DNA of 64,000 nt from positions 1 through 64,000 of the forward strand of contig NZ_JAGGJF010000003.1 in the NCBI RefSeq assembly GCF_030466405.1, in the 5' to 3' direction. The stretch's first letter is position 1. Each line of letters starts with the position of its first letter. The position numbers were made by a program, and so were the translations under genes. Under the pieces are notes generated by a model, which worked only from the letters and a program-made list of their open reading frames with translations, made no database searches and had not been told where the DNA came from. Source of the DNA: Pseudidiomarina terrestris (GTDB taxonomy: Bacteria > Pseudomonadota > Gammaproteobacteria > Enterobacterales > Alteromonadaceae). Of the stretch, positions 1,780 through 44,879 are shown in pieces.

Positions 1780-1797
1780 AACCTTAAGGAGGTAAAC

Positions 1798-2376: not shown

Positions 2377-2392
2377 CGGTATTGGCGAAACG

Positions 2393-2421
2393 GCGCTGCG
2401 GTTAATCCCGCAGCGCTTTTT
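2393..2421 (+). terminator. Terminator after yceI
   Basis: The stem GCGCTGCGG / CCGCAGCGC (2393-2401 / 2408-2416) is followed by TTTTT. The 6-base loop contains the stop codon of the convergent hemY gene, so the hairpin doubles as the 3' end of both transcription units. Confidence 0.8.
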
Positions 2422-4692: not shown

Positions 4693-4695
4693 GGT

Positions 4696-6413: not shown

Positions 6414-6415
6414 GC

Positions 6416-6736
6416 TTACTCCGCTTTCAGCGTGATCGGTTGTCCAGCCTGTTTGCTGCCAGCTTCTGATAATAAGCTCCACAGCTCGGCACCGGTGCGG
6501 TTATCAATCCATTCACCATCCCGGTATTCAAAATGGTGACCATTAAACTTGGTCGCCACCCATAACTGCTGTAATGGTGGCTGTTTGTTAATCACCATCT
6601 TGGTGTCGTTGGGGAAGGTCAACTCAAGAATGTCGCCGCCTGACTCGCAATCAATATCGATTCCGGTCTTTTCGAAAGCTTCTTCTATTGCCAAAATGGT
6701 TGCTTCGGCTAGCTCATGATAATCGTGGTCTTGCAT
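6416..6736 (-). CDS. cyaY: CyaY, bacterial frataxin
   Basis: 106 residues, the same length as E. coli CyaY. The start at 6736 follows AGGAG. Frataxin binds iron through the acidic first helix and tunes the IscS/IscU Fe-S machinery. Visible motifs are [15 protein letters not shown] (acidic ridge and strand 1), [16 protein letters not shown] and [11 protein letters not shown]. It is divergent from lptM-lysA as in E. coli, but runs straight into hemC, so frataxin and the haem genes may share a transcript. Confidence 0.92.
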
Positions 6737-6822
6737 GTCGACTCCTGATAATGACATTTGCGCGCTGCAATGCGATGATAAGCGCACGGTTAATTTGCAA
6801 TTCACAAGGGTACAGTTTACCG

Positions 6823-6987
6823 ATGTTTAAGCTGAAAGTAATGCGTCCAATCATTGTAGCAGCAACCTTGGGCTTGGTCGCCTGTGGCCAGAAGGGACCA
6901 CTGGAGATGCCACCGCCTGCGGAAAAGAATCAGCCATCGACAAGCGTAGCCTCTGCGCCAGTACAGGAAACTAAAAAAGTATTATGA
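6823..6987 (+). CDS. lptM: LptM (YifL) small lipoprotein
   Basis: 54 residues. A short signal sequence leads to the lipobox LVAC followed by GQKGPLEMPPP, the signature of LptM/YifL, which helps LptD mature in the outer membrane. The start may be 6823 (AAGGG 13 bases upstream) or 6841 (GAAAG). Its stop overlaps the lysA start (ATGA). The order lptM-lysA-dapF is typical of gammaproteobacteria outside the enterics. Confidence 0.85.
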   Translation: MFKLKVMRPIIVAATLGLVACGQKGPLEMPPPAEKNQPSTSVASAPVQETKKVL

Positions 6988-8237
6988 GCTTTACATACCA
7001 AGGAAACGAATTTTTTGCTGAAGATTGCTCGGTCGCAGACCTCGCAGCAAAGCACGGGACGCCATTGTTCGTCTACTCTAAGGCGGCGATCACTGCCAAC
7101 TGGCAGCAGTTTGCCCGGCACTGGCCGGCACCGCATAAACTTTGCTACGCGGTAAAAGCCAACTCCAATCTGGCGGTTCTTAACCTGTTAGCGCGGCTGG
7201 GTGCTGGCTTTGATATCGTCTCTGGCGGTGAGCTTGCACGGGTGCTGGCAGCAGGCGGTAAAGCACAGGACGTGGTGTTCTCTGGTGTTGGTAAAAGCCA
7301 TGACGAAATTGCCTATGCGTTGGATCAGAATATCGGCTGCTTTAATGTGGAATCCGCTGCCGAGCTTGAACGGATCCAGCAAATTGCCAGTGACAAAGGT
7401 GTTATCGCACCGATTTCCCTGCGGGTGAACCCGGATGTTGATGCCCAGACCCACCCTTATATTGCTACGGGGCTGAAGGCGAATAAATTTGGTATTGCAA
7501 TGAGCGAGGCGCTGGCAGTCTTCCGGCGTGGCGCAACGTTGTCGAATCTGGATATGCGCGGTATCGATTGCCATATTGGCTCGCAAATCCTCAGTCCACA
7601 GCCATTTCTTGATGCCTCTGAGCGGATGTTCAGTTTAATTGAAACGCTTCGCGCGGAAGGCATTCATATTACCCATCTGGATATGGGGGGCGGCTTCGGC
7701 ATTCCTTACCAGCATGAAGAAAAGCTGGAAGTGAGTGGTTACTTACAAACCCTGCAGAGGAAAGCTGAAGCGATCGGAGATCTGACCTTAATGCTGGAGC
7801 CAGGTCGTGCCATTGTCGGCAACGCCGGCATCATGGTCACCAAAGTGGAGTACTACAAACCAGGCAGTGAAAAGAACTTCCTGCTGGTCGATGCTGGTAT
7901 GAATGACCTGCTGCGACCATCACTTTACAATGCCTATCATGCCATCGTGCCGGTGAACCGCCACGAAGGGCTGGATGAGCAGTTAGTGGACGTTGTGGGT
8001 CCGGTTTGTGAGACTGGCGACTTTTTTGGCCATGCGCGTCACCTGGCAGCACAGGAAGGTGATTTATTGGCGGTAATGAACGCAGGGGCCTACGGTTTCA
8101 CTATGGCGTCAAATTACAATACCCGTCCGCGGGCCGCAGAAGTGATGGTACATGGTGATAGTGCCACTTTAATTCGTGAGCGCGAACCGCTTGCCAGTTT
8201 GTGGCAGGGTGAACACTTGCTCGGAGATGACGCGTGA
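6984..8237 (+). CDS. lysA: Diaminopimelate decarboxylase
   Basis: 417 residues, full length. A PLP enzyme that makes L-lysine from meso-DAP. The PLP lysine is in CYAVKANSN near residue 57, and further motifs are HIGSQI, the GGGFG phosphate loop and [11 protein letters not shown]; the partner-subunit Cys is in [10 protein letters not shown]. It is coupled to lptM (4-base overlap) and to dapF (GTGA overlap), which makes its substrate. Confidence 0.95.
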
Positions 8238-9055
8238 ACTTCAGCAAGATGCACGGCCTGGGTAACGATTTCATGGTGATTGATAACGTGACCCAGACCA
8301 TTTTTGTTAACCCGGAGCAAATCCGTCAGTGGGCGGATCGGCATCGGGGGATTGGCTTCGATCAGCTGTTGCTGGTCGAGCCACCGTATGACCCGGATCT
8401 CGATTTTCATTACCGTATTTTTAATGCAGATGGTAGCGAGGTCGCTCAGTGTGGTAATGGCGCGCGCTGTTTTGCCCTATTTGTAAAACAACGTGGGCTG
8501 AGTAACAAAAATCACCTGCGGGTGAGTACAAAAGCTGGCAATATGGTCTTGCATCATGAGCGTGATGGGCGTATCACAGTAGAGATGGGCGAGCCACGAT
8601 TTGCGCCTGGCGCGGTGCCTTTTAAAGCAAATAAAGAAGAATTGACCTATGTTCTTAGAGTACAGGAACAGACCGTACTCTGTGGCGTCATGGGGTTGGG
8701 TAATCCGCACTGTGTCACCGAAGTAGACGCGATTGAGCAGGCTCCGCTCGCCACACTTGGACAGGCTTTGGCCACGCATGAGCGGTTTCCAGAAGGCGTG
8801 AATGCAGGCTTTATGCAAATCATTGATCGCAATCACATCAAGCTGCGCGTCTTCGAGCGCGGCGCTGGTGAAACCCAGGCTTGTGGCAGTGGCGCATGCG
8901 CCGCCGCTGTCATCGGTATGCGGTTAGGTAAACTAGATGACACCGTATTGGTTGACTTGCCAGGCGGACAATTAACGATTCGCTGGCAACCGGGGCAAAC
9001 CGTGCGCATGACCGGGCCCGCACAACATGTTTATGACGGACACATGAAACTATGA
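8234..9055 (+). CDS. dapF: Diaminopimelate epimerase
   Basis: 273 residues with a GTG start overlapping the lysA stop. It interconverts LL- and meso-DAP for lysine and peptidoglycan. The N terminus [14 protein letters not shown] is the family's, the first catalytic Cys is in QCGNGARCF and the second in [14 protein letters not shown]. Cofactor-free epimerase, cytosolic. The stop overlaps the next gene by 4 bases. Confidence 0.96.
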
Positions 9056-9750
9056 GCACCGAAGCAAAAAAACAAGCTCAACAAACACGCGTCGATGACA
9101 CTTTGATTGCCGCTTATCTTGAAGAAAACCCGGACTTTTTCGATCGGCACCCCGAGCTGTTGCAGCAACTCAGTGTGCGTCATCAGACCAAGGGCGCAGT
9201 ATCGCTGGTCGAACGCCAGCAGCAGGTACTTCGTCAGCGAGTGCAGCACCTGGAAGAAGAAATTACCGAACTGATGGTGACGGCGCGCCGTAATGAGGAG
9301 CTGTTTCGTTACTTTAGCGAGCTTTACCTGAAGCTACTGCAAAGTCAGAGCATTGAGGAAGTCATGGACAGTCTGCAGCAGACGTTCTCAGAACAGTTGC
9401 AGATGCCGGCGTTAACTCTGAAGTTTTTTGATAGCCCGCTGGAGCTTGAAACTCAGTTCACGTTCGCCGCAGACACCCATAAACAGTTGTTGAGCAAACG
9501 CTTTCGCGACGACAGTATTTACCTGGGCCGCTTGACCACCGATGAACAAAAATTGCTGTTCCCGGATGAATCTATCGCCTCGGTGGTGCTGCTGTTACTC
9601 GGTGATAAAGGTGAGTTAGGAATGCTGGCCATTGGCAACCATGATGCCGGGCATTTTGAGCCAGCGATGGATACGCTGCTGGTCAAGCAACTGCAGGTGT
9701 TGTTAAGCCAGATCCTGCCACCCCTTTTAAAACACCATGAAGCTCGCTGA
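9052..9750 (+). CDS. DUF484 family protein
   Basis: 232 residues. The N-terminal ~45 residues carry the DUF484 signature ([19 protein letters not shown]), then a coiled-coil helix (~48-85) and a GAF-like fold. It sits between dapF and xerC, the usual place for this family in gammaproteobacteria. The function is unknown; the GAF-like part suggests ligand sensing (inference). It overlaps xerC by 14 bases. Confidence 0.85.
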
Positions 9751-10636
9751 GGTCAGACAGAAATTCCTGAACCACCTGGCTGGCGAGCGCGGGCTTGCCG
9801 AGCATACCTTATCGAATTACGGCCGCGTATTACGGCATGATATCGACTTCTTTGACAGCGAGGGCATCGATGAGGTCAAAGGCATTGGCGTCAGTCAGTT
9901 TGAACGCCTGTTTATGCAATGGCGGCGCCAGGGCCTTGGTGATGCCTCGTTAGCCTTGCGACTGGCAGCGTGGCGGAGTTGTTTCGATTACTGTATACGG
10001 CAGGGCTGGCGCGACGATAATCCGGCCCGGCAGACCAAGGCCCCGAAAAGCGCCAAGCGCTTGCCTAAGAATCTCGATGTCGACAGCATCAGTCAATTAT
10101 TAAAGCTCCCCGAAGATGATGAGCTGGCCATCCGCGACGCCGCTATCATGGAGTTACTTTATGGCAGCGGCCTGCGCTTGGCTGAACTGGTGGCCCTTGA
10201 TATTGACGCCATTAATCCACGTCACCAGGAGTTACGCGTGCTGGGTAAAGGTGGCAAAACTCGCATCGTACCTTACGGCCGGTGTGCTGCAGAAGCCTTA
10301 CGTAAATGGTTACCGGTGCGGAATAAATGGTTACACGGTCATTTGACCGAAGTCGCGTTGTTTATCAGTCAGCGGCAGCGGCGGATCAGTCCGCGAACGG
10401 TGCAGCAGCGGCTCAACCACTGGGGGCGTCAGCAAGGTCTGAATGGCAGTCTGCACCCACATAAACTGCGCCATTCCTTTGCCTCACATATGTTAGAATC
10501 CAGTGGTGATTTACGTGCGGTACAGGAGCTGCTGGGACATGCCAATTTAAGTACCACCCAGGTTTATACCCACCTGGATTTCCAGCACCTGTCAAAAGTC
10601 TACGATGCCGCGCACCCGCGCGCACGTAAGAAATAA
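9737..10636 (+). CDS. xerC: Tyrosine recombinase XerC
   Basis: 299 residues. With XerD it resolves chromosome dimers at dif. A SAM-like DNA-binding N domain (~1-90) is followed by a catalytic domain with Arg in YGSGLRLAEL, Lys in LGKGGKTRIVP, HKLRHSFASHML (His-x-x-Arg), the His in LLGHANLSTTQ and the nucleophile Tyr in VYTHLDF. All catalytic residues are present. It is coupled to the DUF484 gene. Confidence 0.95.
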   Translation: MKLAEVRQKFLNHLAGERGLAEHTLSNYGRVLRHDIDFFDSEGIDEVKGIGVSQFERLFMQWRRQGLGDASLALRLAAWRSCFDYCIRQGWRDDNPARQTKAPKSAKRLPKNLDVDSISQLLKLPEDDELAIRDAAIMELLYGSGLRLAELVALDIDAINPRHQELRVLGKGGKTRIVPYGRCAAEALRKWLPVRNKWLHGHLTEVALFISQRQRRISPRTVQQRLNHWGRQQGLNGSLHPHKLRHSFASHMLESSGDLRAVQELLGHANLSTTQVYTHLDFQHLSKVYDAAHPRARKK

Positions 10637-10659
10637 CAACCTCAAGTAAAAAGGACGCT

Positions 10660-11376
10660 ATGCAGTTTTTTCGTCGCTTGCAACCTGTTCAGGCCCTCAG
10701 CTTTGACCTCGATGACACCTTGTACGATAACGTGCCGGTCATGCAAAAGGCCGAGGCGGAAAGTTATCGTGCGCTGTGTCAGCGGTATCCGGAAGCAGCT
10801 CGCTGGAGCGTGCAGCAATGGGCGCAGCGGCGTTGGCAGTTAATGCAAAATGAACCTGATCTGGCGAGCGATATGACCGCCTTGCGTCTGGCTACGCTCA
10901 GCCGCGGCCTGCAGGAACTCGGTGTGGCAGAGGCTGCCGCCCGGCAAGGTGCCGACGATATTTTCGCGACCTTTTTGCACTTTCGCAATCAGGTGCAAAT
11001 TGCGCCAGATACGCATCAGTTGTTGCAAGCTCTCGCCGAGCGCTATCCGTTAGTGGCGCTCAGCAATGGCAACGTGGATACTGCGGCGATTGGTCTGCGT
11101 GATTACTTCAGCGCGGTGGTGCAGCCGGGCAGCGGCCTGCGGGGCAAACCGCATAGCGATATGTTTGCCAAAATCGGGCCACTGTTCCCGCAGATTGCAC
11201 CCCAGGGCTGGTTGCATGTGGGCGACAGTCCTTATGCCGACATCCTCGGCGCACAGCGCATGGGCTGGCAGACCGCCTGGTACCGCAGCGGTATCTATGT
11301 TGCTGATCAGCTGCATGTTCTGCCAGTGTTCGCCTTCGACGAGCTGCGCCAGTTGCAGCAGCTACTGCTGAAATAA
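10660..11376 (+). CDS. yigB: HAD-family phosphatase, YigB type
   Basis: 238 residues. HAD motif I is in SFDLDDTLYDN (the first Asp is the nucleophile), motif II in LVALSNGN, and motif III/IV in HVGDSPYADILGA. E. coli YigB dephosphorylates FMN (5-amino-6-(5-phosphoribitylamino)uracil phosphate is a suggested substrate). AAAAGGA precedes the start. It lies 23 bases after xerC, as in E. coli. Confidence 0.88.
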   Translation: MQFFRRLQPVQALSFDLDDTLYDNVPVMQKAEAESYRALCQRYPEAARWSVQQWAQRRWQLMQNEPDLASDMTALRLATLSRGLQELGVAEAAARQGADDIFATFLHFRNQVQIAPDTHQLLQALAERYPLVALSNGNVDTAAIGLRDYFSAVVQPGSGLRGKPHSDMFAKIGPLFPQIAPQGWLHVGDSPYADILGAQRMGWQTAWYRSGIYVADQLHVLPVFAFDELRQLQQLLLK

Positions 11377-11401
11377 ACTCAGACCCCGCCTACGGCGCAG
11401 T

Positions 11402-11421
11402 AACTGGTTGCATATACAGTA
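11402..11421 (+). promoter_or_regulatory. Putative LexA (SOS) box before uvrD
   Basis: CTGGTTGCATATACAG at 11404-11419 matches the gammaproteobacterial LexA palindrome CTG-N10-CAG (full consensus CTGTATATATATACAG) in the outer bases and in ATATACAG. It is ~50 bases upstream of uvrD, an SOS gene in E. coli. Only the left inner G departs from the consensus quartet. Confidence 0.65.
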
Positions 11422-11466
11422 GTGCGCCTTTAAACTGACCACAGCTTTCAACGAATGGATTTTGCT

Positions 11467-13668
11467 ATGACCTCGCATCCCTTGCTCGAGCAACTTAACG
11501 ACAAGCAGCGCGCCGCTGTAGGTGCACCAGAACGACACATGCTGGTGCTGGCCGGCGCCGGTAGTGGTAAAACCCGAGTGCTGGTGCATCGGATTGCCTG
11601 GCTCATGCAGGAACTTCGGTTATCGCCCTACAGTATTATGGCGGTGACCTTTACCAACAAAGCAGCCGCGGAAATGCGCGGGCGCGTCGAAGAACTTATG
11701 GGCAGTTCAACTCGTGCAATGTGGATTGGCACCTTCCATGGGCTGGCGCATCGTTTGTTGCGCGCGCATTACATGGATGTGGACTTACCCCAGAATTTTC
11801 AGATCCTCGATAGTGATGATCAGCAGCGCATGCTCAAGCGCATCATGCGCAGCTTGAATCTGGACGAGAAGCGCTGGTCGCCAAAACAGGCGCAGTGGTT
11901 TATTAACGCCAAAAAAGACGAAGGTTTACGGCCGCATCATCTGGATGGGCTGGATTTTAACGAGCGCACCTACAAAGAGATCTACGACGCCTATCAGGTC
12001 GCCTGTGATCGCGCTGGTTTAGTTGATTTCGCTGAGTTACTGCTACGGGCGCATGAATTATTGCGCGATAACCGCATTGTCCGGGAGCATTATCAGCGCC
12101 GGTTTCGCCATATTCTGGTTGATGAGTTTCAGGATACCAACGCAATTCAGTATGCTTGGGTCAAGCTGCTCTCCGGTGCCGGTAGCGATAAAGAGCACGA
12201 GAACTTCGTGACCATCGTCGGCGATGATGATCAGTCTATTTATGGCTGGCGCGGTGCGAAAATTGAAAACATTCACCAGTTTACTTTGGATTTTCCTGCG
12301 GTTGAGACCATCCGTTTAGAACAGAACTATCGTTCCACAAATACCATTTTAAGCGCTGCCAACAGTGTTATCGCTAACAACAGCGACCGGCTGGGTAAAG
12401 AGCTCTGGACCGAGGGCGGCATGGGCGAGCCTATCGACTTGTACGCCGCCTACAACGAGCTGGACGAGGCGCGCTATATTTCCAGTCAGATAGAAGCCTG
12501 GCATGAGCAAGGCAATGCCTTACAGGATGTGGCACTGCTGTACCGCAGTAATGCGCAGTCGCGGGTACTCGAAGAAGCCTTGCTACATAGCCGCATCCCC
12601 TACCGCATCTACGGTGGCTTACGCTTCTTTGATCGACAAGAAGTCAAAGACGCGCTGGCTTATCTGCGCTTGCTTGCTAACCGTGACGATGACGCGGCAT
12701 TGGAGCGTGTGATCAATACGCCGACCCGGGGTATCGGTGCGCGGACCCTGGATACCGTGCGCGAAGGCGCGCGCCAGCGCGGCACCTCTTTGTGGCAGGC
12801 CGCCAGGCAATTGGCCACGGAAAAAGTACTTACCGGGCGGGCCGCCAATGCGGTGCTGGCGTTTATCGATCTGATTGAACAGCTGGAAGACGAAACCGGT
12901 GAATACAGCCTTGGCCGGCAAGTCGACACCGTCATCAAAAGCAGCGGCTTGATGGCCATGTATCAGGCGGAAAAAGGTGAGAAAGCCGAAACCCGCGTGG
13001 AAAACTTAAAAGAGCTGGTAAACGCCTGCGATAACTTTGATCAGCTCGAACGGGTTGAGGAAGAAGAGCTGTCGCCGTTGAATGGATTTCTTGCTCATGC
13101 CGCACTGGAGTCGGGTGATGAGCAAGCCGATGAACATCAGGATGCGGTCCAGCTGATGACCTTGCACAGCGCAAAAGGTCTGGAGTTTCCACTGGTTTTC
13201 ATGTGCGGCGTGGAAGAAGGATTGTTCCCTTCCCAGCAATCACTGGATGAGGCTGGCCGGCTCGCAGAAGAGCGGCGGCTGTGCTACGTCGGCATGACGC
13301 GGGCGATGCAGAAGCTGGTGATCAGCTATGCCGAGCAGCGCCGGGTGTATGGCCAGGAGAAGCTGCATACGCCGAGTCGCTTCATCGCTGAGATCCCCTC
13401 TGAAAATGTGCACCATGTGCGCATGCAAAGTCGTCGTAGCTTTTCCACGGAAACACCGAGTTACGGGCGTTTCCATACTGGCGCCAGTCATGAAGCTTTT
13501 GAGGAGAGCGGTTTTCAGCTGGGACAGCGGGTTCGTCATGTGAAATTTGGCGAGGGTACCGTCCTCAACTATGAGGGCTCTGGTCCGCAGAGCCGCATCC
13601 AAGTGAACTTTGATGACCTTGGCAGCAAATGGCTGGTGGTTGCTTACGCGCGTCTCGAACGCTGCTGA
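11467..13668 (+). CDS. uvrD: DNA helicase II, UvrD
   Basis: 733 residues from 11467; 11455 in frame is also possible, neither having a clear ribosome site. SF1A 3'-5' helicase for nucleotide-excision and mismatch repair. Motifs: Walker A AGAGSGKTRVL, motif Ia TFTNKAAAEMR, DEFQDTN, GDDDQSIYGWRGA, LEQNYRST, TLHSAKGLEFP and VGMTRAM, with a Tudor-like C tail (residues ~675-733). It ends inside the 3' end of the convergent rarD gene (25-base overlap). Confidence 0.95.
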   Translation: MTSHPLLEQLNDKQRAAVGAPERHMLVLAGAGSGKTRVLVHRIAWLMQELRLSPYSIMAVTFTNKAAAEMRGRVEELMGSSTRAMWIGTFHGLAHRLLRAHYMDVDLPQNFQILDSDDQQRMLKRIMRSLNLDEKRWSPKQAQWFINAKKDEGLRPHHLDGLDFNERTYKEIYDAYQVACDRAGLVDFAELLLRAHELLRDNRIVREHYQRRFRHILVDEFQDTNAIQYAWVKLLSGAGSDKEHENFVTIVGDDDQSIYGWRGAKIENIHQFTLDFPAVETIRLEQNYRSTNTILSAANSVIANNSDRLGKELWTEGGMGEPIDLYAAYNELDEARYISSQIEAWHEQGNALQDVALLYRSNAQSRVLEEALLHSRIPYRIYGGLRFFDRQEVKDALAYLRLLANRDDDAALERVINTPTRGIGARTLDTVREGARQRGTSLWQAARQLATEKVLTGRAANAVLAFIDLIEQLEDETGEYSLGRQVDTVIKSSGLMAMYQAEKGEKAETRVENLKELVNACDNFDQLERVEEEELSPLNGFLAHAALESGDEQADEHQDAVQLMTLHSAKGLEFPLVFMCGVEEGLFPSQQSLDEAGRLAEERRLCYVGMTRAMQKLVISYAEQRRVYGQEKLHTPSRFIAEIPSENVHHVRMQSRRSFSTETPSYGRFHTGASHEAFEESGFQLGQRVRHVKFGEGTVLNYEGSGPQSRIQVNFDDLGSKWLVVAYARLERC

Positions 13669-20148: not shown

Positions 20149-20967
20149 GTGGATACGGAAAAGATACTAGGTTTATTTAAAGAGATCACCAGTGCGGTAT
20201 TGATTGAAATCGGCGTGGTATTCGCTGTTGCGACCTTGATAGTGCTCGCCAGCCAGCGCGTGCTGCCGTGGCTGGCGGGCCATTTGCATGGCAAGCAGCG
20301 GTTGTTCGCACTGGCCCTGATCCCGACCATTCGTGTGCTGGTGTTCATTGTCGCCTTCGTCTGGGTTGTGCCGTTGGTGATTGAGCCAAGCATGCAGAAC
20401 ATGGTCGCCATTCTCGGTGCTGCAGGTCTGGCGATTGGGTTTGCCCTGAAAGACTACATCAGCAGTATGGCCGCGGGGATGGTCGCGGTTTATGAACTGC
20501 CTTACCGACCCGGGGACTGGATTGAGGTTGAGGGAACCTACGGCGAAGTGAAGCACATCGGCATGCGGGCGGTGGAGATGGTGACTCCTGATGACACCGT
20601 GGTGTTTATCCCGCACCTGAAGTTATGGACAAAACTCATTTTTAACGCCAACAATGGCGGGCCGAGTTTAATGTGTGTGGCCGATTTCTATCTGCATCCG
20701 GAGCATGATGCCAATGTGGTGAAACACCTATTGGAAGATGTCGGTTTGACCAGCCCTTATGTACAGCTGTCCAAGCCTATAGTGGTGGTTGCTAAAGAGG
20801 AGCCCTGGGGAACGCATTACCGGCTGAAAGCCTATCCGATTGACCCTCGTCAGCAATTTCAGTTCATGACCGATTTGACCGCGCGCGGCAAAAATTGCCT
20901 GCGCGCGTTACCCGTTAAGTTTGCCCAGCTGTCACCAGAGCACGCTGCTCAGGCAGGCCCATACTAA
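20149..20967 (+). CDS. mscS: MscS-family mechanosensitive ion channel
   Basis: 272 residues, GTG start behind GAGGA. Three membrane helices; the pore-lining TM3 is LGAAGLAIGFALKDYISSMAAGM, followed by the beta domain (PGDWIEVEGTYGEVKHIGMRAV) and the alpha/beta cytosolic domain. It releases solutes on hypo-osmotic shock. It follows the unknown gene above by 12 bases. Its last 53 bases overlap the end of the convergent FabD-like gene. Confidence 0.9.
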   Translation: MDTEKILGLFKEITSAVLIEIGVVFAVATLIVLASQRVLPWLAGHLHGKQRLFALALIPTIRVLVFIVAFVWVVPLVIEPSMQNMVAILGAAGLAIGFALKDYISSMAAGMVAVYELPYRPGDWIEVEGTYGEVKHIGMRAVEMVTPDDTVVFIPHLKLWTKLIFNANNGGPSLMCVADFYLHPEHDANVVKHLLEDVGLTSPYVQLSKPIVVVAKEEPWGTHYRLKAYPIDPRQQFQFMTDLTARGKNCLRALPVKFAQLSPEHAAQAGPY

Positions 20968-21973
20968 GCACGTAGGGATGCGCAGCTTTTTGCTGTGCAG
21001 TGAAGCTGGCTTTGTCGGTGAGTCCTTGCCAACCTATCGCGATCAATGCTTGTGCAACGGCCCCGCCGAGACCGCTACCAGGACCGAGCAGAATAATATG
21101 ATCCGGTGCGTAGTCTTTCACCGCCACCTGTACGGCTTTGCTGAAATCGTAGGTTTCGGTGACTTGATGGCCAAGGGTATAACGCTGCAGTGCGCGCATG
21201 TCCGCTGTGGGCGTAAGCCACTGAAAACCACGACCATCCACCAGCGGAGTTTGTGGTGGGTGAAACGCAGCCACCGGCCAGGTCTCCAGCGCCTCGGTTG
21301 CGGCATCGCTCATCATCCGGGTGTGGAACGCCGCATGGCCTGGTAGCAACATAGGAAAGCGTTCATCGGCTGTGGGTAAGGCCTGGATTGCCGCGTTACA
21401 GGCAGCTTCGGTACCTGCCAGAACGGCGTAGCCCCCATAGTTAATGGAGTGCATCAATTCATCAGGATGCGCTGCAACTTGCGCTTCAACCAAAGCAATA
21501 CGTTTCGCGTCCGGGCGCCACTCACTATCAATGATCGGATAAATAAACTGCGCTCCGGCGCCACCCGCGGTTAACTGCGCCATACTGGTGACCAGCTTGG
21601 TGCTGGTGCTCAACGACCAGGCGTCAGCACAGGCCATTGCCGTATACCATCCCATCGAGTTGCCCGTCAGTGCCACCACCTCGTACTGCTCGCGATCGAT
21701 GCTGAGAAAGTCCAGATAGCCAGCAGCGTAGATAAGGGCAGCCGCATTTTCCGGGCGCTGGTGTAGGGAAGTTTTAAACAACTTCGCCTGATCCAGCTCC
21801 GTCACTGTTGGCAGGCCCAGCGCTTCGCGTTCGGCGTCGATGGCATCCAGTTTATCTTGCAAAGTTTCCCTTAACTTCGGCGAAGATGCTGCTATGTTCG
21901 CGTAGATCGAGCCAAGTTCTGGTTTATTATAGGTCCCCCGCCCGGGACAGATGACCAGTGCTGTTTTCTTCAT
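20915..21973 (-). CDS. FabD-like acyltransferase
   Basis: 352 residues of malonyl-CoA:ACP transacylase fold. The nucleophile motif is GNSMGWY (~111-117) and the catalytic His is in AAFHTRMM. Departures from FabD: the N-terminal GQGSQ loop is GRGTY, and the Arg that holds the malonyl carboxylate appears replaced (KLVTSMAQL aligns with KLVRLRGQL), so a substrate other than malonyl-CoA is likely. GGAGG lies before the start, which overlaps the stop of the E1 gene by 4 bases. Function beyond acyl transfer is not known. Confidence 0.72.
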   Translation of the reverse strand: MKKTALVICPGRGTYNKPELGSIYANIAASSPKLRETLQDKLDAIDAEREALGLPTVTELDQAKLFKTSLHQRPENAAALIYAAGYLDFLSIDREQYEVVALTGNSMGWYTAMACADAWSLSTSTKLVTSMAQLTAGGAGAQFIYPIIDSEWRPDAKRIALVEAQVAAHPDELMHSINYGGYAVLAGTEAACNAAIQALPTADERFPMLLPGHAAFHTRMMSDAATEALETWPVAAFHPPQTPLVDGRGFQWLTPTADMRALQRYTLGHQVTETYDFSKAVQVAVKDYAPDHIILLGPGSGLGGAVAQALIAIGWQGLTDKASFTAQQKAAHPYVLSMGLPEQRALVTAGQT

Positions 21974-24174
21974 GATTGACCTCCACGAAGCATCATCATA
22001 GCCTTTTCGGTAATGCCATCGCGCGATGGCAGGACCGTGTAAGCGGCTTTACCCAAAGGAATAAAACTATCCTCTGCGGTCAGTCGCTGAATGCTAAAGT
22101 GTCCGGGGTAGTCTTCGTGCAATGCCGTGATCAGCTCTTCACTTAATGAGCCGCGGCGACGGCATTCATCGACAATTAGCAGTTTCTTACTGTTACCCAG
22201 GGCGGCGACAATTTTGTCCACGTGCAGTGGCACCAGACAACGAATGTCCAGCACGCGCACCCGATGGCCGGCGTCAGCAAGTTGCTTTTCGGCCTGACGG
22301 CTCAGGTAATAGCCATTACCGTATGAAATAATCGCCAACTCTTCGCCATCGCCATACACTGCAGGTTCACCCAGCTCGGGTAACGGGGTCGTGACATCCG
22401 GGTAGTGACTCAGCCAGCCGGCATCGCCTTCCTGGTGCAGATCCCGTGCCATATAGAGTGCTATAGGTTCCAGCATAATCACCACTCGCTGTTCCGCCGC
22501 AGCCAGTTGTACTGCTTGGCGCATCAACAGAGCGCCGTCTGCGCCATTCGAGGGGCAGAGGACAATGACGCCAGGGATGTCTCGGAACACCGCGAATGAG
22601 TTGTCGTTGTGAAAGTGGCCCCCGAAGCCCCGCTGGTAGGCAAGCCCGGCAATGCGGATCACCATCGGGTTGGTGTACTGACCATCCGAAAAGAAAGATA
22701 GCGTGGCAGCTTCGCCACGGATCTGATCTTCGGCATTATGCACATACGCCAGGAACTGGATCTCTGGCATGGCAATAAACCCTTGTTGTGCCATTCCTAT
22801 GGCAAGCCCAAGAATACTTTGTTCATCGAGTACAGTATTGAGTACCCGATTCGGACCAAAGGCCTCCATCAGATGTTGAGTGACGTGGTAAACCCCACCT
22901 TTTTTCGCAATATCTTCACCGCACATGACAATCGAGCCATACTGCGCCATCAGATCATGCAACGCCCAGTTCAGTAATTTTGCCAGATGCTGTGGCTTGC
23001 CAACATTGTGCTTGTCCCACTTAAAGAGACCTTCACGGCGCGTTGCATCAGGCACTGCCGGTAGTGTGGACGGGTCTTTTTTCGGTGGTACGATGGAACG
23101 CATAACATCCGTTGCCGAGGTCAGCTTAGGCTGCTGTGCGGCCTGATTTGCGATGCGTACCATGCGTTGCTGCTGCCGTCTGATGTGCGTCACCAGTGAC
23201 TCAGAATCAAACAGGCCGCGGGCGATAACTGCTGCACAGCTATGCAATAGCGGGTCGCGCTCGGCATCAAGGGCAATTTCCTGTTTGCTCCGATACGCCA
23301 CTTCAGCATCGGCGCCGGCGTGACCGAATAAGCGGATGGTGCGCAGATGCAGGATGGCAGGTTTACGTTTCTGGCGGACGTAGTCCGCTGCTTGCTGCGC
23401 AACCAGGTAGGTTTCAGCCAGGTTGCTGCCATCGGCAAAGAAGTACTTCAGTGCAGGGCGCTGACTGAGTTGCTGCTGAATCCAGCCTTGCGGCGTGTGC
23501 GTCGAAATTCCCAGGCCATTGTCCTCACAAACGAACAGCAAAGGCATCGGGATCTGTTGATAAGCGGCCCAGCTGGCGGAGTTAATCGCACCTAAGGCGG
23601 TGGAGTGATTGGCCGAGGCATCGCCAAAGCTGCACATGGCAATGGCATCGTGCGGCCAGGTGCCTTGGTGCTGCAAGCGCTTTGACAAACCAATGGCAAA
23701 CGCGGTGCCCATAGCTTTTGGTACATGCGAGGCGATGGTACTGGTTTGCGGGGGGATATGTAGCTCAAGGCTACCAAGCACTTTATGACGGCCACCCGAG
23801 ATGGGGTCGTCGCTCGAGGCAGCAAAGCTCAGCAACATATCGTAAAGCGGCGTGGTGCCGGGTTTCTGTTTCGCCCGCTGCAAAAAGAATGCGCCACTGC
23901 GGTAGTGCAGAAACGCAGGGTCGCTGACCCGCATGGCTTTGGCAACGGCGGCGTTGGCCTCATGGCCGGAGCTACCTATGGTGTAAAAACTCTGCCCCGC
24001 GGCCTGCATCAGTCGTGATTGCAGGTCGAGCAGACGACTGGCCAACTGTGAGTCAAACAGTTCAACCAGGTCGGCGTCGCTAAGGACGCCGCCTGCGGCC
24101 TGCGCATGGGGCAGTTCTTGTCGTTCTATACGCTGGATAAAGTCGCCCAGCCATGGGTGCATTGCTGCAGCCAT
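21970..24174 (-). CDS. 2-oxoacid dehydrogenase E1, fused alpha and beta subunits
   Basis: 734 residues. The N half is an E1-alpha TPP domain (SFGDASANHSTALGA ... FVCEDNGLG), and the C half an E1-beta domain (ALHDLMAQYGSIVMCGEDIAKKGGVY, LDEQSILGLAIGMA). In most bacteria these are two proteins. E1 decarboxylates a 2-oxoacid and passes the acyl group to a lipoyl-E2, but no E2 or E3 gene is in the window. It lies 33 bases after gcdH and overlaps the FabD-like gene. The oxoacid is unknown; 2-oxoadipate or branched-chain oxoacids are possibilities. Confidence 0.82.
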   Translation of the reverse strand: MAAAMHPWLGDFIQRIERQELPHAQAAGGVLSDADLVELFDSQLASRLLDLQSRLMQAAGQSFYTIGSSGHEANAAVAKAMRVSDPAFLHYRSGAFFLQRAKQKPGTTPLYDMLLSFAASSDDPISGGRHKVLGSLELHIPPQTSTIASHVPKAMGTAFAIGLSKRLQHQGTWPHDAIAMCSFGDASANHSTALGAINSASWAAYQQIPMPLLFVCEDNGLGISTHTPQGWIQQQLSQRPALKYFFADGSNLAETYLVAQQAADYVRQKRKPAILHLRTIRLFGHAGADAEVAYRSKQEIALDAERDPLLHSCAAVIARGLFDSESLVTHIRRQQQRMVRIANQAAQQPKLTSATDVMRSIVPPKKDPSTLPAVPDATRREGLFKWDKHNVGKPQHLAKLLNWALHDLMAQYGSIVMCGEDIAKKGGVYHVTQHLMEAFGPNRVLNTVLDEQSILGLAIGMAQQGFIAMPEIQFLAYVHNAEDQIRGEAATLSFFSDGQYTNPMVIRIAGLAYQRGFGGHFHNDNSFAVFRDIPGVIVLCPSNGADGALLMRQAVQLAAAEQRVVIMLEPIALYMARDLHQEGDAGWLSHYPDVTTPLPELGEPAVYGDGEELAIISYGNGYYLSRQAEKQLADAGHRVRVLDIRCLVPLHVDKIVAALGNSKKLLIVDECRRRGSLSEELITALHEDYPGHFSIQRLTAEDSFIPLGKAAYTVLPSRDGITEKAMMMLRGGQS

Positions 24175-24207: not shown

Positions 24208-25386
24208 TTAACAGCTAAAAGCCTGGATACCCGTTTGTGCACGGCCCAGAATCAACGCATGTACATCATGCGTGCCTTCGTATGTGTTCACCGCTTCCAG
24301 GTTCATGACATGACGGATGACATGGTATTCATCGGCAATACCGTTACCGCCATGCATGTCACGCGCCAGGCGGGCAATGTCCAACGCCTTGCCACACGAG
24401 TTACGTTTGATCAGTGAGATGGTCTCCGGGGGTAACTGATTGGCATCCATCAGGCGACCCGCCTGCAGACAGGCCAACAGACCAATGCTGATTTCTGTTT
24501 GCATATCGGCCAGTTTCTTTTGTACCAGCTGCGTCGCGGCCAGCGGGCGATCAAACTGTTTCCGATCCAGCGTGTACTGACGTGCCGCGTGCCAGCAGAA
24601 TTCTGCCGCGCCAAGTGCGCCCCAGCCGATGCCATAGCGGGCTTTATTCAAACAGCCAAACGGACCCTTAAGACCGCTGACATTAGGCAGTAAGGCGGAT
24701 TCAGGAACCTCAACGTTATCCATCACGATTTCGCCGGTGATCGAAGCCCGCAACGAGAATTTACCGTCGATTTTCGGGGCCGACAGGCCGGCCATGCCTT
24801 TTTCCAGGATAAAACCGCGGATTTCGCCGTCGAGCTTACCCCAGACCACAAATACGTCCGCAATGGGGGAATTGGTGATCCACATTTTGGTGCCTTTGAT
24901 GACATAGCCACCATCGACTTTTTTCGCTGTGGTGCGCATCGCCGCTGGATCCGAGCCGGCGTCTGGTTCGGTTAAGCCAAAGCAACCGACCCATTCGCCG
25001 CTGGCCAGTTTCGGCAGGTACTTTTGCCGTTGCTCTTCGCTGCCATAGGCATGAATCGGATGCATGACCAACGAGGATTGCACGCTCATGGCACTACGAT
25101 AACCGCTGTCGACGCGTTCGACTTCGCGGGCAATGAGTCCGTAGCAGACATGGTTTACTTCGGCACAACCGTATTTTTCTGGCAGGGTTGCGCCAAGCAG
25201 GCCTAATTCACCCAGCTCGTTCATGATTTCACGATCAAAACGCTCTTCGCGGTTGGCGGTCAGTACCCGCGGCATCAGTTTCTCCTGACAGTACTGATGA
25301 GCGGTGTCGCGGATCATGCGCTCTTCTTCGGTAAGCATGTCGCTGAGTTGAAAAGGGTCTTGCCAGTCAAAGGGAACGCGTGCCAT
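24208..25386 (-). CDS. gcdH: Glutaryl-CoA dehydrogenase
   Basis: 392 residues. FAD enzyme that oxidises and decarboxylates glutaryl-CoA to crotonyl-CoA in lysine/tryptophan breakdown. Typical markers: [17 protein letters not shown] at the N terminus, [28 protein letters not shown], the [17 protein letters not shown] stretch, and the catalytic Glu in [17 protein letters not shown]. Divergent from the LysR gene at 25528, its usual neighbour. First gene of the row with E1 and the FabD-like gene. Confidence 0.93.
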
Positions 25387-25527: not shown

Positions 25528-26379
25528 ATGGATTTACGCCAGCTTCAGTATTTTGTTGCCGTTTATGAGCAAGGCAGTATCAGTGGTGCGGCACGTGCCT
25601 GTGCAGTGGCGCAGCCAAGTCTCTCCAAAGCCCTGCAGCAACTCGAAGATGAGCTGCGGGTGCGATTATTCGTGCGCCAGTCAAGAGGGGTAACCCCAAC
25701 GGAGGATGGCGAGCGTCTGTATGGCCACGCCGGACGAATGCTGAGTCAGATGCAGTCATTAAAAGCATCGTTCCGGCATAGCGTTACCCGGGTGCAGTTT
25801 CGCCTGGGTCTGATTCGGGCGCTGGGTGTGGAGCGCATGAGTCAGTTGCTACGGGATTTTACTGCGGGAGTCGACGGCCTGGAGTTACACCTGGTGGAGC
25901 CTGATGAAGAAGCGGACGCGCGCATTATCTCGCCACGCATGCTAAGAGCTGGCGAGCAGTTTTTACCCATCTGGCATGACCGCTTTGTGCTGGCGCTGCC
26001 AGCCGGACACCCGCTGGCATTGCAGAACGAGCTGGGATTATCGCAAATGCAGGGGCAGGCGCTGATTAAGCGCACCCCTTGTGAAGCCTGGTCGACGTTT
26101 TACCCTGAGCTCATCCGGCAAGGCATTCAGCCCGATATTCGGGCTGACATTCATACCATTGAGTATGCCCTGGGGCTGGTCTCAGCTGGCGTAGGCTGCG
26201 CCCTGGTGCCGGATTTAGAGTCGTTACGTGAACGTCAGGATGTGGTGTTACGTCCCCTTGCTGAGCTTACCCTGGAGCGGACCATCGGCATGGCTTATCC
26301 GCGCAGTCATAGTGAAGATACACCACTGCGCTGGCTGCAACAGGTGTGCCGCCAAACGGCTGCCCAAAGTGCGGGCTAG
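25528..26379 (+). CDS. LysR-family transcriptional regulator
   Basis: 283 residues. Winged HTH at 1-60 (MDLRQLQYFVAVYEQGSISGAA ... QPSLSKALQQLEDELRVRLF), then a substrate-binding fold (~90-280). Divergent from gcdH across 141 bases, so it very likely controls gcdH and the genes behind it, with a CoA ester or organic acid as inducer (inference). Its stop overlaps the convergent ferredoxin gene by 4 bases. Confidence 0.9.
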   Translation: MDLRQLQYFVAVYEQGSISGAARACAVAQPSLSKALQQLEDELRVRLFVRQSRGVTPTEDGERLYGHAGRMLSQMQSLKASFRHSVTRVQFRLGLIRALGVERMSQLLRDFTAGVDGLELHLVEPDEEADARIISPRMLRAGEQFLPIWHDRFVLALPAGHPLALQNELGLSQMQGQALIKRTPCEAWSTFYPELIRQGIQPDIRADIHTIEYALGLVSAGVGCALVPDLESLRERQDVVLRPLAELTLERTIGMAYPRSHSEDTPLRWLQQVCRQTAAQSAG

Positions 26380-32819: not shown

Positions 32820-33907
32820 CGTTACGCGTGCGCTGCACTCTCCCACTGCGCCACTTTGCGCTTGCTGTTGATGTAACGATTCCCTCCCAGGGGATTACCG
32901 CAATTGTTGGCCCGTCAGGCAGTGGCAAAACCTCCTTGCTGCAGGTTATCGCTGGGGTGCAGTCCGGTGCTGCTGCCGCGGAAGTCAGCTTCAACGGCAG
33001 CCTATGGCAGGGGCAAAGATGCGAAGTGCCGTTACATCAACGACGACTGGGATTGGTGCTGCAGCATCCAAGTTTATTTCCGCAGCTAACGGTCGCCGAA
33101 AACCTACGCTACGGCTGGCAACGGGCACCAAAACAGCGGCCGCTGCAATGGCACGAAGTGGTGCAAGCTTGCGGCTTACACGACTTATTGCAGCAGTATC
33201 CGGCGCAGCTCTCGGGGGGCCAACAGCAACGCGTTGCATTTGCACGCGCGTTACTGGCACAGCCTCAGTTACTGATCCTCGACGAGCCATTCTCGGCATT
33301 GGACGACGAGGCGCGTCAGTACTTTGTCAATTACTTGCGGAGGGTCAGCGGTCGTTATAATTTGCCGGTGGTCTGGGTCAGTCATCAGCTGACTGATGTG
33401 GCGCAAATAAGCGATACGCTGGTACAACTGCACGAGGGCCAGGTCATTGGTTGCGGTCCACTGGTGACTGAGTTACAGCGCGAACCGCTGCGGTCAAAGT
33501 TGGCGCTTTCGGTACTCGAAGTGCGTCGCAGCAGCTTGCCACAGACTCAGGATCACAGTTGGCAATTGCAGTTGGGCGGGCAACAGCTGGTGGTACCCAG
33601 GCCGCAATGGCAACAAGAGGATGCTGACGCGACAGTGCGATTGCGGGTCTTTGCGCGTGATGTGAGTCTCACCCGGGAATTGGTCGCAGACTCGAGTGTC
33701 CAGAACCAACTTATGGCAGAAGTGATCACCAGTTATCCTGCGCAGCATCCCGCTGAACGGGTAGTTCAGCTGCGCGTCGGCGGGCAGCCACTGCTGGCGT
33801 TGATCACCTCCTCATCCTGGCAACGTCTCGATCTGCGCGAGGGGACTGCGGTGGTCGTCCATCTGAAGGCGGTTGCGCTGCACGAAACCTTCCGCGAACG
33901 CTTGTAA
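32816..33907 (+). CDS. modC: Molybdate ABC transporter ATP-binding protein ModC
   Basis: 363 residues. Walker A VGPSGSGKTSLL, Q-loop LGLVLQHPSLFPQLTV, signature QLSGGQQQRVAFARALL, Walker B LLILDEPFSALD, switch His in VWVSHQ, and a C-terminal MOP (molybdate-sensing) domain at ~290-355. Its last 96 bases lie antisense to the end of the decarboxylase gene on the minus strand, an unusually long convergent overlap. Confidence 0.94.
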   Translation: MTLRVRCTLPLRHFALAVDVTIPSQGITAIVGPSGSGKTSLLQVIAGVQSGAAAAEVSFNGSLWQGQRCEVPLHQRRLGLVLQHPSLFPQLTVAENLRYGWQRAPKQRPLQWHEVVQACGLHDLLQQYPAQLSGGQQQRVAFARALLAQPQLLILDEPFSALDDEARQYFVNYLRRVSGRYNLPVVWVSHQLTDVAQISDTLVQLHEGQVIGCGPLVTELQREPLRSKLALSVLEVRRSSLPQTQDHSWQLQLGGQQLVVPRPQWQQEDADATVRLRVFARDVSLTRELVADSSVQNQLMAEVITSYPAQHPAERVVQLRVGGQPLLALITSSSWQRLDLREGTAVVVHLKAVALHETFRERL

Positions 33908-35503
33908 ACGAGCACTACGGCGCTGCTGTAAGCGAACCTCAATCACCTGCAAACTGGCAGGTTCACGCCAGGCCTGACGGAACGCCTGTAAAAAACCGTC
34001 GACTGAGTTGCTGAAGTGGGTTGTTGCGCCCTGTGCTGCGGCTATGCCAAGCAGATCACAGGCTGGCATTGTCGCGCAAGTTAACCCTGGTGCGAACGCA
34101 TCGATCATATCCCAGGACTGATTGTTCAGTAACACTACAATCGGCATAGCACCCTGTTGTTGCAGGCGGCTGAGTTCCAGACCGGTCATCATAAATGCCC
34201 CATCCCCGACGACGACTACAGCGCGCAATCCGGTACTGACATGAACCCCAAGAGCGGCGGGTATACTGAATCCCATTGAGGCGTAATACGCAGGTGCGAG
34301 CAGATGTCTGGGGTTTGCGTGCAAAGATGCAAACAAACAGTCACCGACATCACTGATAATAGGCACAAGCTCGTCTTGCTGTGCGAGTTCATGGTCGATG
34401 ATTTTCATTACGGTGGTGGTGTCCCAGCCTTCATTGCTCAAGTCTTCCGGTTGGCTGTGCTGGGGTACTGTTAGCTCCGTCCACCAGCTGTGCTGGCGCG
34501 GCAAGTGCCGATCGAGCAACCCTTCGCAAATCGTGCTTAAGTCCACATCATAAAATCGAGAATCAGGGAAATAGCTGGTGCCCTGATGCAGATGCAATAC
34601 TTTGTCGCCATTAGCGAACTCCGGGTAAGCGGCAAAATTGGTATCGTTAACAATCACGCCAAAGTGCACAATAAGGTCACTGTCCTGCAAAAGTTGGTAC
34701 GGTCGCTGTTGGGCCGTATCACCAGGCATGCCTTTATCGATAAAAGTGCCATGAAAACAGGGGTGATCTGGGGCTACAGCTGCTCGCGCAAGCAAGGTTG
34801 TCAGAAGCGGGATGTTGAGCTGTAAAGCGAGATTCTCCAGCGCTCTGCCAGCATCAAATCGTTGCACTTCAATGCCGGCTAAAAATACTGGACGTTGCGC
34901 CTGTTGCAACCGATGCGCCAAAATATTTTGCATCTGTAGTTGCGCTTTTAAAGGCATAGAAGCCTTTTGATAGCGAGGCAGTTGCAAGCAGTCAAAGTCG
35001 ATCGCATCACGGGGTATCTCAATCAGTACTGGACGTGACTGTTCATAACAGCATTGCAGCGCAGCACGAATTTGACCACCGGCGCGCACAGGATCGTCAA
35101 TCCGTACTTGTAGCTCGGTAACCTCGGCGAAAATCCGTCGCTGTGAATCGACAGACTTTGCTTGATGATGGATCGCTTGAGTTCCGGCAAGCTCTGCCTT
35201 GCCTGGAAAGCCAGCGATGATGACCACCGGGACACGCTCAACATAGGCTTGTGCCACAGCATTGACGGCATTGAGTGCACCCGCGCCATAAGTTAACAAG
35301 GCTGCACTGGGCGCGCGCGAAATACGTGCTGCAGCATCGGCTGCATAGACCACGCTGGGCTCGTGGTTCAGGGGATGAAATGGCAGCTGTTGGCGTTGTT
35401 CTAACTCTTGTAGCAACGGCAGAACAAAATCACCGGGGATACCAAACATGGCCTTGCAGCCAAACTGCTCAAGTTCCGCTAATAAAAGATCAACCAAGCG
35501 CAT
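33812..35503 (-). CDS. TPP-dependent 2-oxoacid decarboxylase (indolepyruvate/phenylpyruvate decarboxylase type)
   Basis: 563 residues. Pyruvate-decarboxylase-like domain order. Active-site features: GIPGDFVLP (Asp), NHEPSVVYAADAAAR (Glu for TPP), the His-His pair in TQAIHHQAK that marks non-oxidative 2-oxoacid decarboxylases, and GDGAFMMTGLELSRL...LLNNQSW (Mg/TPP). It should turn an aryl or branched 2-oxoacid into the aldehyde; indolepyruvate or phenylpyruvate is the best guess. It sits between the mod operon and moeA, with a possible FNR box upstream. GGAG lies 8 bases before the start. Confidence 0.8.
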   Translation of the reverse strand: MRLVDLLLAELEQFGCKAMFGIPGDFVLPLLQELEQRQQLPFHPLNHEPSVVYAADAAARISRAPSAALLTYGAGALNAVNAVAQAYVERVPVVIIAGFPGKAELAGTQAIHHQAKSVDSQRRIFAEVTELQVRIDDPVRAGGQIRAALQCCYEQSRPVLIEIPRDAIDFDCLQLPRYQKASMPLKAQLQMQNILAHRLQQAQRPVFLAGIEVQRFDAGRALENLALQLNIPLLTTLLARAAVAPDHPCFHGTFIDKGMPGDTAQQRPYQLLQDSDLIVHFGVIVNDTNFAAYPEFANGDKVLHLHQGTSYFPDSRFYDVDLSTICEGLLDRHLPRQHSWWTELTVPQHSQPEDLSNEGWDTTTVMKIIDHELAQQDELVPIISDVGDCLFASLHANPRHLLAPAYYASMGFSIPAALGVHVSTGLRAVVVVGDGAFMMTGLELSRLQQQGAMPIVVLLNNQSWDMIDAFAPGLTCATMPACDLLGIAAAQGATTHFSNSVDGFLQAFRQAWREPASLQVIEVRLQQRRSARLQAFAEGFVQRNRLQMDDHRSPLAQIETLPG

Positions 35504-44858: not shown

Positions 44859-44879
44859 CGTTGGAGTGAGGACAATACG

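Follow-up and report, generated by a model that had tools for sequence, protein, structure and literature searches.

A fused 2-oxoacid dehydrogenase E1 and a FabD-fold protein next to gcdH in Pseudidiomarina terrestris: a candidate bacterial 2-oxoadipate dehydrogenase module

The gene pair and its lysine-catabolism context

A stretch of 64,000 nucleotides from the 2.63-Mb genome of Pseudidiomarina terrestris (contig NZ_JAGGJF010000003.1, positions 1 to 64,000; the window) carries a gene pair that quite probably converts 2-oxoadipate into glutaryl-CoA in lysine breakdown, a well-supported pathway assignment that rests on gene context. The pair consists of a gene for a fused alpha-beta E1 of the 2-oxoacid dehydrogenase type (21970-24174, minus strand; 734 amino acids, P0002), recognized by Pfam domains and fold and proposed to be a 2-oxoadipate dehydrogenase E1, and a gene for a FabD-fold acyltransferase-like protein (20915-21973, minus strand; 352 amino acids, P0001), recognized by its open reading frame (ORF), profile scores, and fold. 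Together with gcdH (24208-25386, minus strand; 392 amino acids, P0003), assigned to glutaryl-CoA dehydrogenase by Pfam and homology to solved chains, they form three consecutive minus-strand genes in the order gcdH, E1, FabD-like gene; the position after gcdH and the four-base overlap between the ORFs of the pair are as the first-pass annotation of the window had described them. Taken as a whole, the pair may be a bacterial 2-oxoadipate dehydrogenase module that supplies GcdH with glutaryl-CoA, using borrowed lipoyl groups and having the FabD-like protein as a dedicated partner, a reading that we hold to be evenly poised between right and wrong.

The window GcdH is a close homologue of proven glutaryl-CoA dehydrogenases. 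It aligned over 388 residues (619.7 bits, E 1.6e-185) with 1sir, which we take to be the human enzyme, and contains the GYRS motif, the role of the Arg in this motif being likewise assumed by us. It also matched 3d6b, named glutaryl-CoA dehydrogenase (E 5.4e-180), the best structure match being 4w9u, named acyl-CoA dehydrogenase.

A scan of genome contigs with six exact peptide patterns, which was not exhaustive, retrieved 76 FabD-like loci, the nearest named one being that of Pseudidiomarina halophila (FabD-like protein 88% identical). E1 was encoded directly upstream in 74 of them, the remaining two (L103 and L109) being cut by a contig end, and the four-base overlap recurred in 65 of the 74 pair loci. 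By record title, the hosts are Idiomarinaceae, many Rhodobacteraceae, Sphingomonadales, Bdellovibrionia, a deltaproteobacterium, and others; Phaeobacter inhibens, the subject of published lysine work (PMC5653290), was not among the loci of this non-exhaustive scan. Similarly, among 299 sampled genomes of the phylum, a strong E1 match occurred in 15 and a strong FabD-like match (at least 258 bits) in six, all lying among the 15, and the next FabD-like match (46 bits) was at the level of ordinary FabD. The FabD-like protein was never seen without E1 (74/74 uncut loci, 6/6 sampled genomes). Furthermore, members paired with the FabD-like gene fell on both sides of the midpoint of an E1 tree (44 of 92 sequences; built by a quick method, with four branches that are long). 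The coupling of the two genes proposed in the first-pass annotation is borne out, and it is old. One divergent pair (L100; 43%/50% identity) came from a contig titled Klebsiella pneumoniae MAG; its E1 groups with the Myxococcota and Nonomuraea rows, and the contig title is probably wrong.

The gene neighbourhoods of other bacteria point to a step from 2-oxoadipate to glutaryl-CoA that feeds GcdH, a substrate missing from the first-pass annotation. Indeed, GcdH (counted at an identity of at least 50%) was present in 39 of the 74 pair loci, as were piperidine-6-carboxylate dehydrogenase (24 loci), a class I/II aminotransferase (21), a lysine/saccharopine-dehydrogenase-like gene (16), a pipecolate-oxidase-like gene (16), and a LysR relative (33). 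At least one lysine-catabolism gene or GcdH occurred in 66/74 pair loci; outside the Idiomarinaceae, 41 of the 54 loci had one or more of the four lysine-catabolism genes. For example, the order in a Defluviimonas locus (L067) is LysR, aminotransferase, GcdH, E1, FabD-like protein, and piperidine-6-carboxylate dehydrogenase, followed after approximately 1.5 kb by a lysine/saccharopine-dehydrogenase-like gene, with a similar order in comparable loci. The piperidine-6-carboxylate-type aldehyde dehydrogenase of another locus (L056) scored 818.9 bits against a curated cut-off of 730. Genome-wide, this dehydrogenase exceeded its cut-off in 9/15 E1 genomes versus 41/284 others (299 genomes; Fisher p=1.2e-4, kinship ignored), and among 22 named genomes chosen from the 76 loci it was found in 11 of the 15 outside the Idiomarinaceae. 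Seven of the 11 E1-only loci contained GcdH as well (L112, L129, L130, and L134-L137), which was not found in the available DNA of L113 and L131-L133. E1 has GcdH beside it in loci of Gammaproteobacteria, Alphaproteobacteria, and Bdellovibrionota and, across the Alphaproteobacteria, lysine genes as well. In Ruegeria pomeroyi, lysine dehydrogenase and aminoadipate-semialdehyde dehydrogenase have been assigned experimentally (PMC4334477). If the pair performs the step from 2-oxoadipate to glutaryl-CoA, the route from lysine to crotonyl-CoA is complete; no 2-aminoadipate transaminase (NF049976) scored above its cut-off in 12 genomes. The pair is a directly testable candidate for the bacterial 2-oxoadipate step, located beside lysine-catabolism genes in marine Rhodobacteraceae.

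Several neighbourhoods showed further particularities. In Legionella adelaidensis (L112, 7968-11340), an E1 gene (approximately 48% identity) shares an overlap of 23 bases with a GcdH-like gene and lies next to no FabD-like gene; at the level of this locus, the rest of the genome not having been searched, E1 and GcdH thus occur naturally as a unit that lacks the partner. Only gcdH fragments (residues 90-124 and 253-390) were retrieved beside E1 in L075 and L106, which suggests a decayed or frameshifted gcdH. Ruegeria-type loci (L073, 12956-16195, and 12 others) encode, near the lysine genes, a protein of 1079 amino acids that combines parts of the reductive-dehalogenase, ferredoxin, and flavoprotein types.

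The fused E1 and the active site of the FabD-fold protein

By sequence and predicted fold, P0002 is a member of the alpha2beta2 class of thiamine diphosphate (ThDP)-dependent E1 enzymes, with its domains, ThDP motif, and catalytic Glu and His residues. It contains E1_dh, Transket_pyr, and Transketolase_C domains, all above the Pfam cut-offs, in an alpha-like part (23125-24048, minus strand; PF00676, residues 43-350) with the ThDP motif GDASAN...EDNG and a beta-like part (22057-22986, minus strand; PF02779 and PF02780, residues 397-706). In its AlphaFold2 model (pLDDT 84.6), which is a single chain, as is that of P0001, an E1 alpha fold is joined to an E1 beta fold. The first half matched branched-chain E1 alpha 2bff_A (Z 34.9, 2.4 Å, 320 residues) and the second half E1 beta 1w85_B (Z 33.4, 1.8 Å, 322 residues, 27% identity), other matches being 1umb_C (Z 34.4, 27% identity) and 1um9_B (Z 32.8, 31%). 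Among 92 of 93 E1 relatives (82 beside a FabD-like gene, 10 not), 124 residues were invariant. G184, D185, N219, H285, E451, H520, and H522 were invariant in these 92 sequences and E420 in 21 sequences, their catalytic roles being in part presumed. His285 and His522 presumably correspond to the His pair on which reductive acylation by branched-chain E1 depends (cf. 1olx/1ols), a mapping made partly by eye, and the invariant R129-H130-K131 are candidate basic residues for binding a distal carboxylate.

By reading, the window genome encodes separate sets for pyruvate dehydrogenase (PDH; E1, E2, E3), 2-oxoglutarate dehydrogenase (OGDH; E1, E2), and the branched-chain enzyme (E1 alpha, E1 beta, E2), so that P0002 is an additional E1. 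A further ThDP-dependent decarboxylase in the window, of the pyruvate/indolepyruvate-decarboxylase type by reading (33812-35503), is apparently unrelated to it. As P0002 is nearest to branched-chain and pyruvate E1 in sequence and fold, and as no source of 2-oxoadipate was found in the Idiomarinaceae, the pair might use another 2-oxoacid, such as a branched-chain or aromatic one, with only an indirect relation to gcdH. This is improbable, given the three sets already present, the occurrence of GcdH beside E1 in three groups and of lysine genes beside it across the Alphaproteobacteria, and the 124 residues invariant in paired and unpaired E1s, which argue for one substrate.

A Ser-His dyad on a FabD fold indicates that P0001 is a member of the FabD-fold acyltransferase superfamily. 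It matched no Pfam family at E≤0.001, and its scores against MdcH, the epsilon subunit of malonate decarboxylase (TIGR03131; 46.5 bits), and FabD (TIGR00128; 39.1 bits) were below the respective cut-offs of 297.9 and 260.9. Its AlphaFold2 model (pLDDT 94.3, pTM 0.93) has the FabD fold, with 3k89 (Z 33.7, 2.5 Å, 298 residues) and E. coli FabD 1mla (Z 33.2, 2.3 Å, 294 residues, 17% identity) as matches.

Conservation was assessed in 75 of 84 family matches, the nine left out being at most 320 amino acids long or containing a stop within the matched stretch; alignment A1 comprises 47 of 55 representatives. Invariant in 75/75 members (codons on the minus strand) were Arg12 of the oxyanion loop PGRGTY, at FabD Gln11 (21938-21940); Tyr15; the nucleophile Ser106 within GNSMG (21650-21664); Met131, which profile alignment places at Arg117, the malonyl-binding residue of E. 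coli FabD (21581-21583); and the catalytic-type His217 of an FHT motif (21323-21325). Columns were compared between 17 family members and 23 script-picked FabD ORFs, one of which looks wrongly picked and three of which have N-terminal gaps. FabD had Gln (19/23), a gap (3/23), or Lys (1/23) at Arg12, Gln at Tyr15 (19), His at Asn105 (23), Glu at Trp109 (22), Arg at Met131 (22), Asn at Ser176 (22), and Arg at Asp276 (21), and a GHSLGE-type motif in place of GNSMGW. The lost malonyl-binding Arg, the altered oxyanion loop, and the retained Ser and His, all proposed in the first-pass annotation, are thus borne out; as to an Arg elsewhere, the equivalent of Arg117 is gone, yet the invariant Arg12 is present in the active-site loop. 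Since the scores are below the cut-offs and the active-site residues differ, ordinary FabD or MdcH membership was rejected.

Public records name the E1 'thiamine pyrophosphate-dependent enzyme' or 'alpha-ketoacid dehydrogenase subunit alpha/beta' and the FabD-like protein, including the annotated relatives of P0001, 'ACP S-malonyltransferase' (ACP, acyl carrier protein), which points to a recurring misannotation of both proteins. The latter name and a fold identical in type would suit an ordinary second malonyl-CoA:ACP transacylase located beside a catabolic E1 by chance, an idea that is highly implausible in view of Met at Arg117 in all 75 members, the GNSMGW motif, the invariant pairing with E1, and a second, weaker FabD-like match in the window genome, presumably its own FabD. 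The residues of P0001 also seem not to fit typical polyketide synthase (PKS) acyl hydrolases, for which the missing Arg is described as diagnostic, with usually Gln or His, and less often other residues, in its place and strictly Gln or His as the oxyanion residue (PMC11775670). No PKS was found in the neighbour clusters examined around the pair. In the FabD-like enzyme, a fold of fatty-acid synthesis seems to have been put to a new purpose.

Acyl acceptor, proposed mechanism, and neighbouring features

As claimed in the first-pass annotation, no E2 or E3 travels with the pair. With tblastn and the three E2 proteins of the genome (E≤1e-4), no E2 was found in the window or in 94 related loci, and one E3 query (E≤1e-10) gave no match in the window and a single weak one (28%, in L072) among the 94 loci. 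The locus is hence without the lipoyl-E2 and E3 genes that mark a 2-oxoacid dehydrogenase complex, and homologous loci do not regularly hold them. The nearest E2 seen in 18 genomes was approximately 10.6 kb away, in an E1-only genome (G094). Scans with PF00198 and PF00364 gave no clear indication of an additional E2 or lipoyl carrier in other parts of the genomes, GcvH not having been searched for and a small carrier being possible. The 18 genomes had two to five E2 matches (PF00198) each; two of those with the pair (G115 and G135) had two E2s only, and the frame sizes of their strong lipoyl/biotin-domain matches were as expected for PDH, OGDH, AccB, and carboxylases, an assignment by size. 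The PF00364 scan of nine genomes gave one strong match per genome in a frame of 154-250 amino acids, taken as AccB, besides one 92-amino-acid frame (G214) and weak partial matches of approximately 22-31 bits, a few of which lie in frames 124-203 amino acids long and may be GcvH.

Because no dedicated E2 was found at the loci, E1 probably either borrows a lipoyl acceptor or works without one. Borrowing from the housekeeping E2s is rather likely and has precedents: DHTKD1 shares the E2 of OGDH (PMC12643935; PMC7340257), and actinobacterial OdhA needs a lipoyl-lysine supplied in trans by AceF, the E2 of PDH (PMC10415282). The suggestion that E1 is served by E2 and E3 from another locus is probably right as well, since E1 needs an oxidant. 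The same need weighs on a lipoyl-free alternative, in which the acyl group would pass from ThDP to Ser106 and then to CoA or ACP with another oxidant. The absence of E2 from the 94 loci and the strict pairing agree with it; it is nevertheless very improbable, as no redox partner except GcdH recurs in the neighbour clusters, the FabD-like gene is missing from 9/15 E1 genomes, and the presumed reductive-acylation His residues appear to be kept as His285 and His522, as mapped partly by eye.

For the proposed module with borrowed lipoyl groups, four steps may be envisaged. Firstly, the fused E1, which is of the branched-chain type, would decarboxylate 2-oxoadipate on ThDP, as its family and gene context suggest. 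Secondly, the acyl group would pass to a lipoyl group of the housekeeping E2s, given the missing dedicated E2 and the DHTKD1 and OdhA precedents. Thirdly, and least certainly, Ser106 of the FabD-fold partner would accept the glutaryl group of the dihydrolipoyl thioester, Arg12 possibly contacting the carboxylate in place of FabD Arg117, and the partner would give the group to CoA or to water, the latter freeing jammed lipoyl groups. Lastly, by established GcdH chemistry, glutaryl-CoA is converted into crotonyl-CoA. We infer for the partner an action on a glutaryl thioester, to which we assign slightly less than an even chance. By analogy, a FabD-fold enzyme of the serine type that is linked to a 2-oxoadipate E1 would be compatible with transfer to CoA and with glutaryl clearing alike. 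That it is a working acyltransferase, carrying glutaryl from the borrowed lipoyl arm to CoA, is a tentative proposal with about one chance in three. The earlier idea that it passes the acyl group made by E1 to CoA or ACP thus stands in part: CoA is possible as acceptor, an oxidant still being needed, and the neighbourhoods give no pointer to ACP.

Several observations weigh against the whole reading, the evidence for which consists of sequence, gene context, and fold. The FabD-like gene is missing from nine of the 15 E1 genomes (G007, G083, G086, G031, G090, G094, G154, G213, and G284) as well as from the E1 loci of Legionella and Nonomuraea, and the FabD-like label changes six times on the E1 tree, at least four of the changes being forced by starred branches. 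In the available DNA, no GcdH was found in 35/74 pair loci and none of the five marker genes in 8/74, some of these being short contigs. Four of the 15 named pair genomes outside the Idiomarinaceae had no piperidine-6-carboxylate dehydrogenase above the cut-off, and two E1-only genomes (G090 and G094) encode full-length HglS, another outlet for 2-oxoadipate. In the Idiomarinaceae, the family of the window itself, the four lysine-catabolism genes were found in 0/20 loci and piperidine-6-carboxylate dehydrogenase above the cut-off in 0/8 genomes tested; accordingly, no known source of 2-oxoadipate emerged from these sequences.

The GcdH-E1-FabD-like arrangement is kept in 20/20 Idiomarinaceae loci. 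Candidate sources of 2-oxoadipate were considered for this family and rejected. For the saccharopine route, the sole PF16653 match of the window genome precedes an NspC-like gene and reads as a carboxynorspermidine synthase of polyamine synthesis. For the tryptophan route, 3-HAO was not found in the window genome or that of Idiomarina loihiensis; it was found in 9/18 genomes, including G083 and G115, which have no lysine marker. No aldehyde dehydrogenase of the window genome scored above the NF050084 cut-off, and two that were searched matched succinate-semialdehyde dehydrogenase best, below its cut-off. PF07063 (HglS) was above its cut-off in 6/18 genomes, full-length in the two E1-only genomes mentioned and as short relatives in the window genome (G000), G007, G126, and G299; by reading, no lysine gene lies beside the short protein of the window genome (269 amino acids, 96 bits; contig C7, approximately 396.66-397.47 kb; L170, 6660-7469).

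The existence of E1 genomes without the FabD-like gene implies that the protein is not strictly required and favours an accessory role. A housekeeping E2 might then perform the whole acyl transfer downstream of a 2-oxoadipate E1, with the FabD-like protein confined to editing: by cleaving glutaryl or incorrect acyl groups off lipoyl, CoA, or ACP, it would keep PDH and OGDH unblocked. The six label changes and the absence of the FabD-like protein without E1 agree with such editing, as do the loss of the Arg, described for PKS systems as a diagnostic mark of acyl hydrolases with the FabD fold (PMC11775670), and the human serine hydrolase ABHD11, of another fold, which removes glutaryl groups that accumulate on the lipoyl of the OGDH E2 (PMC12643935). 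Yet Met instead of the usual Gln or His at the Arg position, Arg instead of Gln or His as oxyanion residue, and the tight overlap with E1, which would be at least equally expected of a catalytic partner, render editing alone somewhat unlikely.

If the FabD-fold protein of the proposed module moves or clears glutaryl thioesters, it would be a bacterial counterpart of human lipoyl deglutarylation and new FabD-fold chemistry. If it is truly an acyltransferase, it would be a second evolutionary solution for E2 chemistry, in a fold unrelated to E2 catalytic domains, and a stand-alone E2 replacement, with E1 and an acyltransferase operating without an E2 core of their own. In the literature searched, mainly open and such that an earlier mention is possible, neither a bacterial gene for the conversion of 2-oxoadipate into glutaryl-CoA nor a description of the E1/FabD-like pair was found.

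Other features of the window were noted. A divergent LysR-type gene (25528-26379, plus strand) is, by position and sequence reading, a candidate regulator of gcdH, E1, and the FabD-like gene; promoter and terminator scans gave nothing above chance. Furthermore, translations of a denitrification-type island (36785-57695) read as NarL/NarX-like regulators, a NarK-like major facilitator superfamily protein, narGHJI-like genes (41028-47849), a 756-amino-acid nitric-oxide-reductase-like protein, an anaerobic ribonucleotide-reductase-like gene, and a HemN-like gene. The nar cluster lies approximately 12-16 kb from gcdH-E1-FabD-like, and on a Shewanella aestuarii plasmid (L110) a nar operon (721-7411) is separated by one gene from gcdH-E1-FabD-like (8325-13257), a shared proximity that possibly reflects chance or a shared mobile segment. 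Finally, two consecutive U32-peptidase-like genes (58300-60266, by reading) resemble the UbiU/UbiV pair for anaerobic ubiquinone synthesis.

Comparison with known systems

E. coli FabD shares with P0001 the fold, the Ser-His pair, and the Gln270 column (Gln in 23/23 FabD ORFs), and differs by Arg117->Met131, Gln11->Arg12, Gln14->Tyr15, His91->Asn105, and Glu95->Trp109, the E. coli numbers other than Arg117 being those we take the enzyme to have. The alpha2beta2 branched-chain and pyruvate E1 enzymes (1umb, 1dtw, 1w85) resemble both halves of P0002 in fold and sequence; here, in contrast, alpha and beta form one chain, no E2 gene lies beside it, and the neighbours are others. The trans-acyltransferase PKS acyl hydrolases PksD and PedC have a FabD fold without the malonyl Arg too (PMC11775670), although they mostly have Gln or His at that position and act on ACP, whereas Met and an oxyanion Arg are found here. 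Actinobacterial OdhA/KGD likewise couples E1 to an acyltransferase, with lipoyl in trans from AceF (PMC10415282), but its acyltransferase is a genuine E2o catalytic domain within one chain with E1, the FabD-fold protein being a separate chain. The lipoyl deglutarylase ABHD11 is also a serine enzyme that clears glutaryl from lipoyl-E2 (PMC12643935); it is, however, a human alpha/beta hydrolase, so that the analogy is functional only. The HglS (DUF1338) route of Pseudomonas putida consumes lysine-derived 2-oxoadipate as well (PMC7286885), with 2-hydroxyglutarate as the product. Finally, the human 2-oxoadipate dehydrogenase complex (DHTKD1 as E1a, DLST, and DLD) has the substrate, the product, and the place before glutaryl-CoA dehydrogenase that are proposed here, and an E1 that shares an E2 instead of having its own (PMC7340257; PMC12643935). 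DHTKD1 is of the OGDH type, in contrast with the E1 of P. terrestris, which fuses alpha and beta parts of the branched-chain/PDH type and has a FabD-fold partner.

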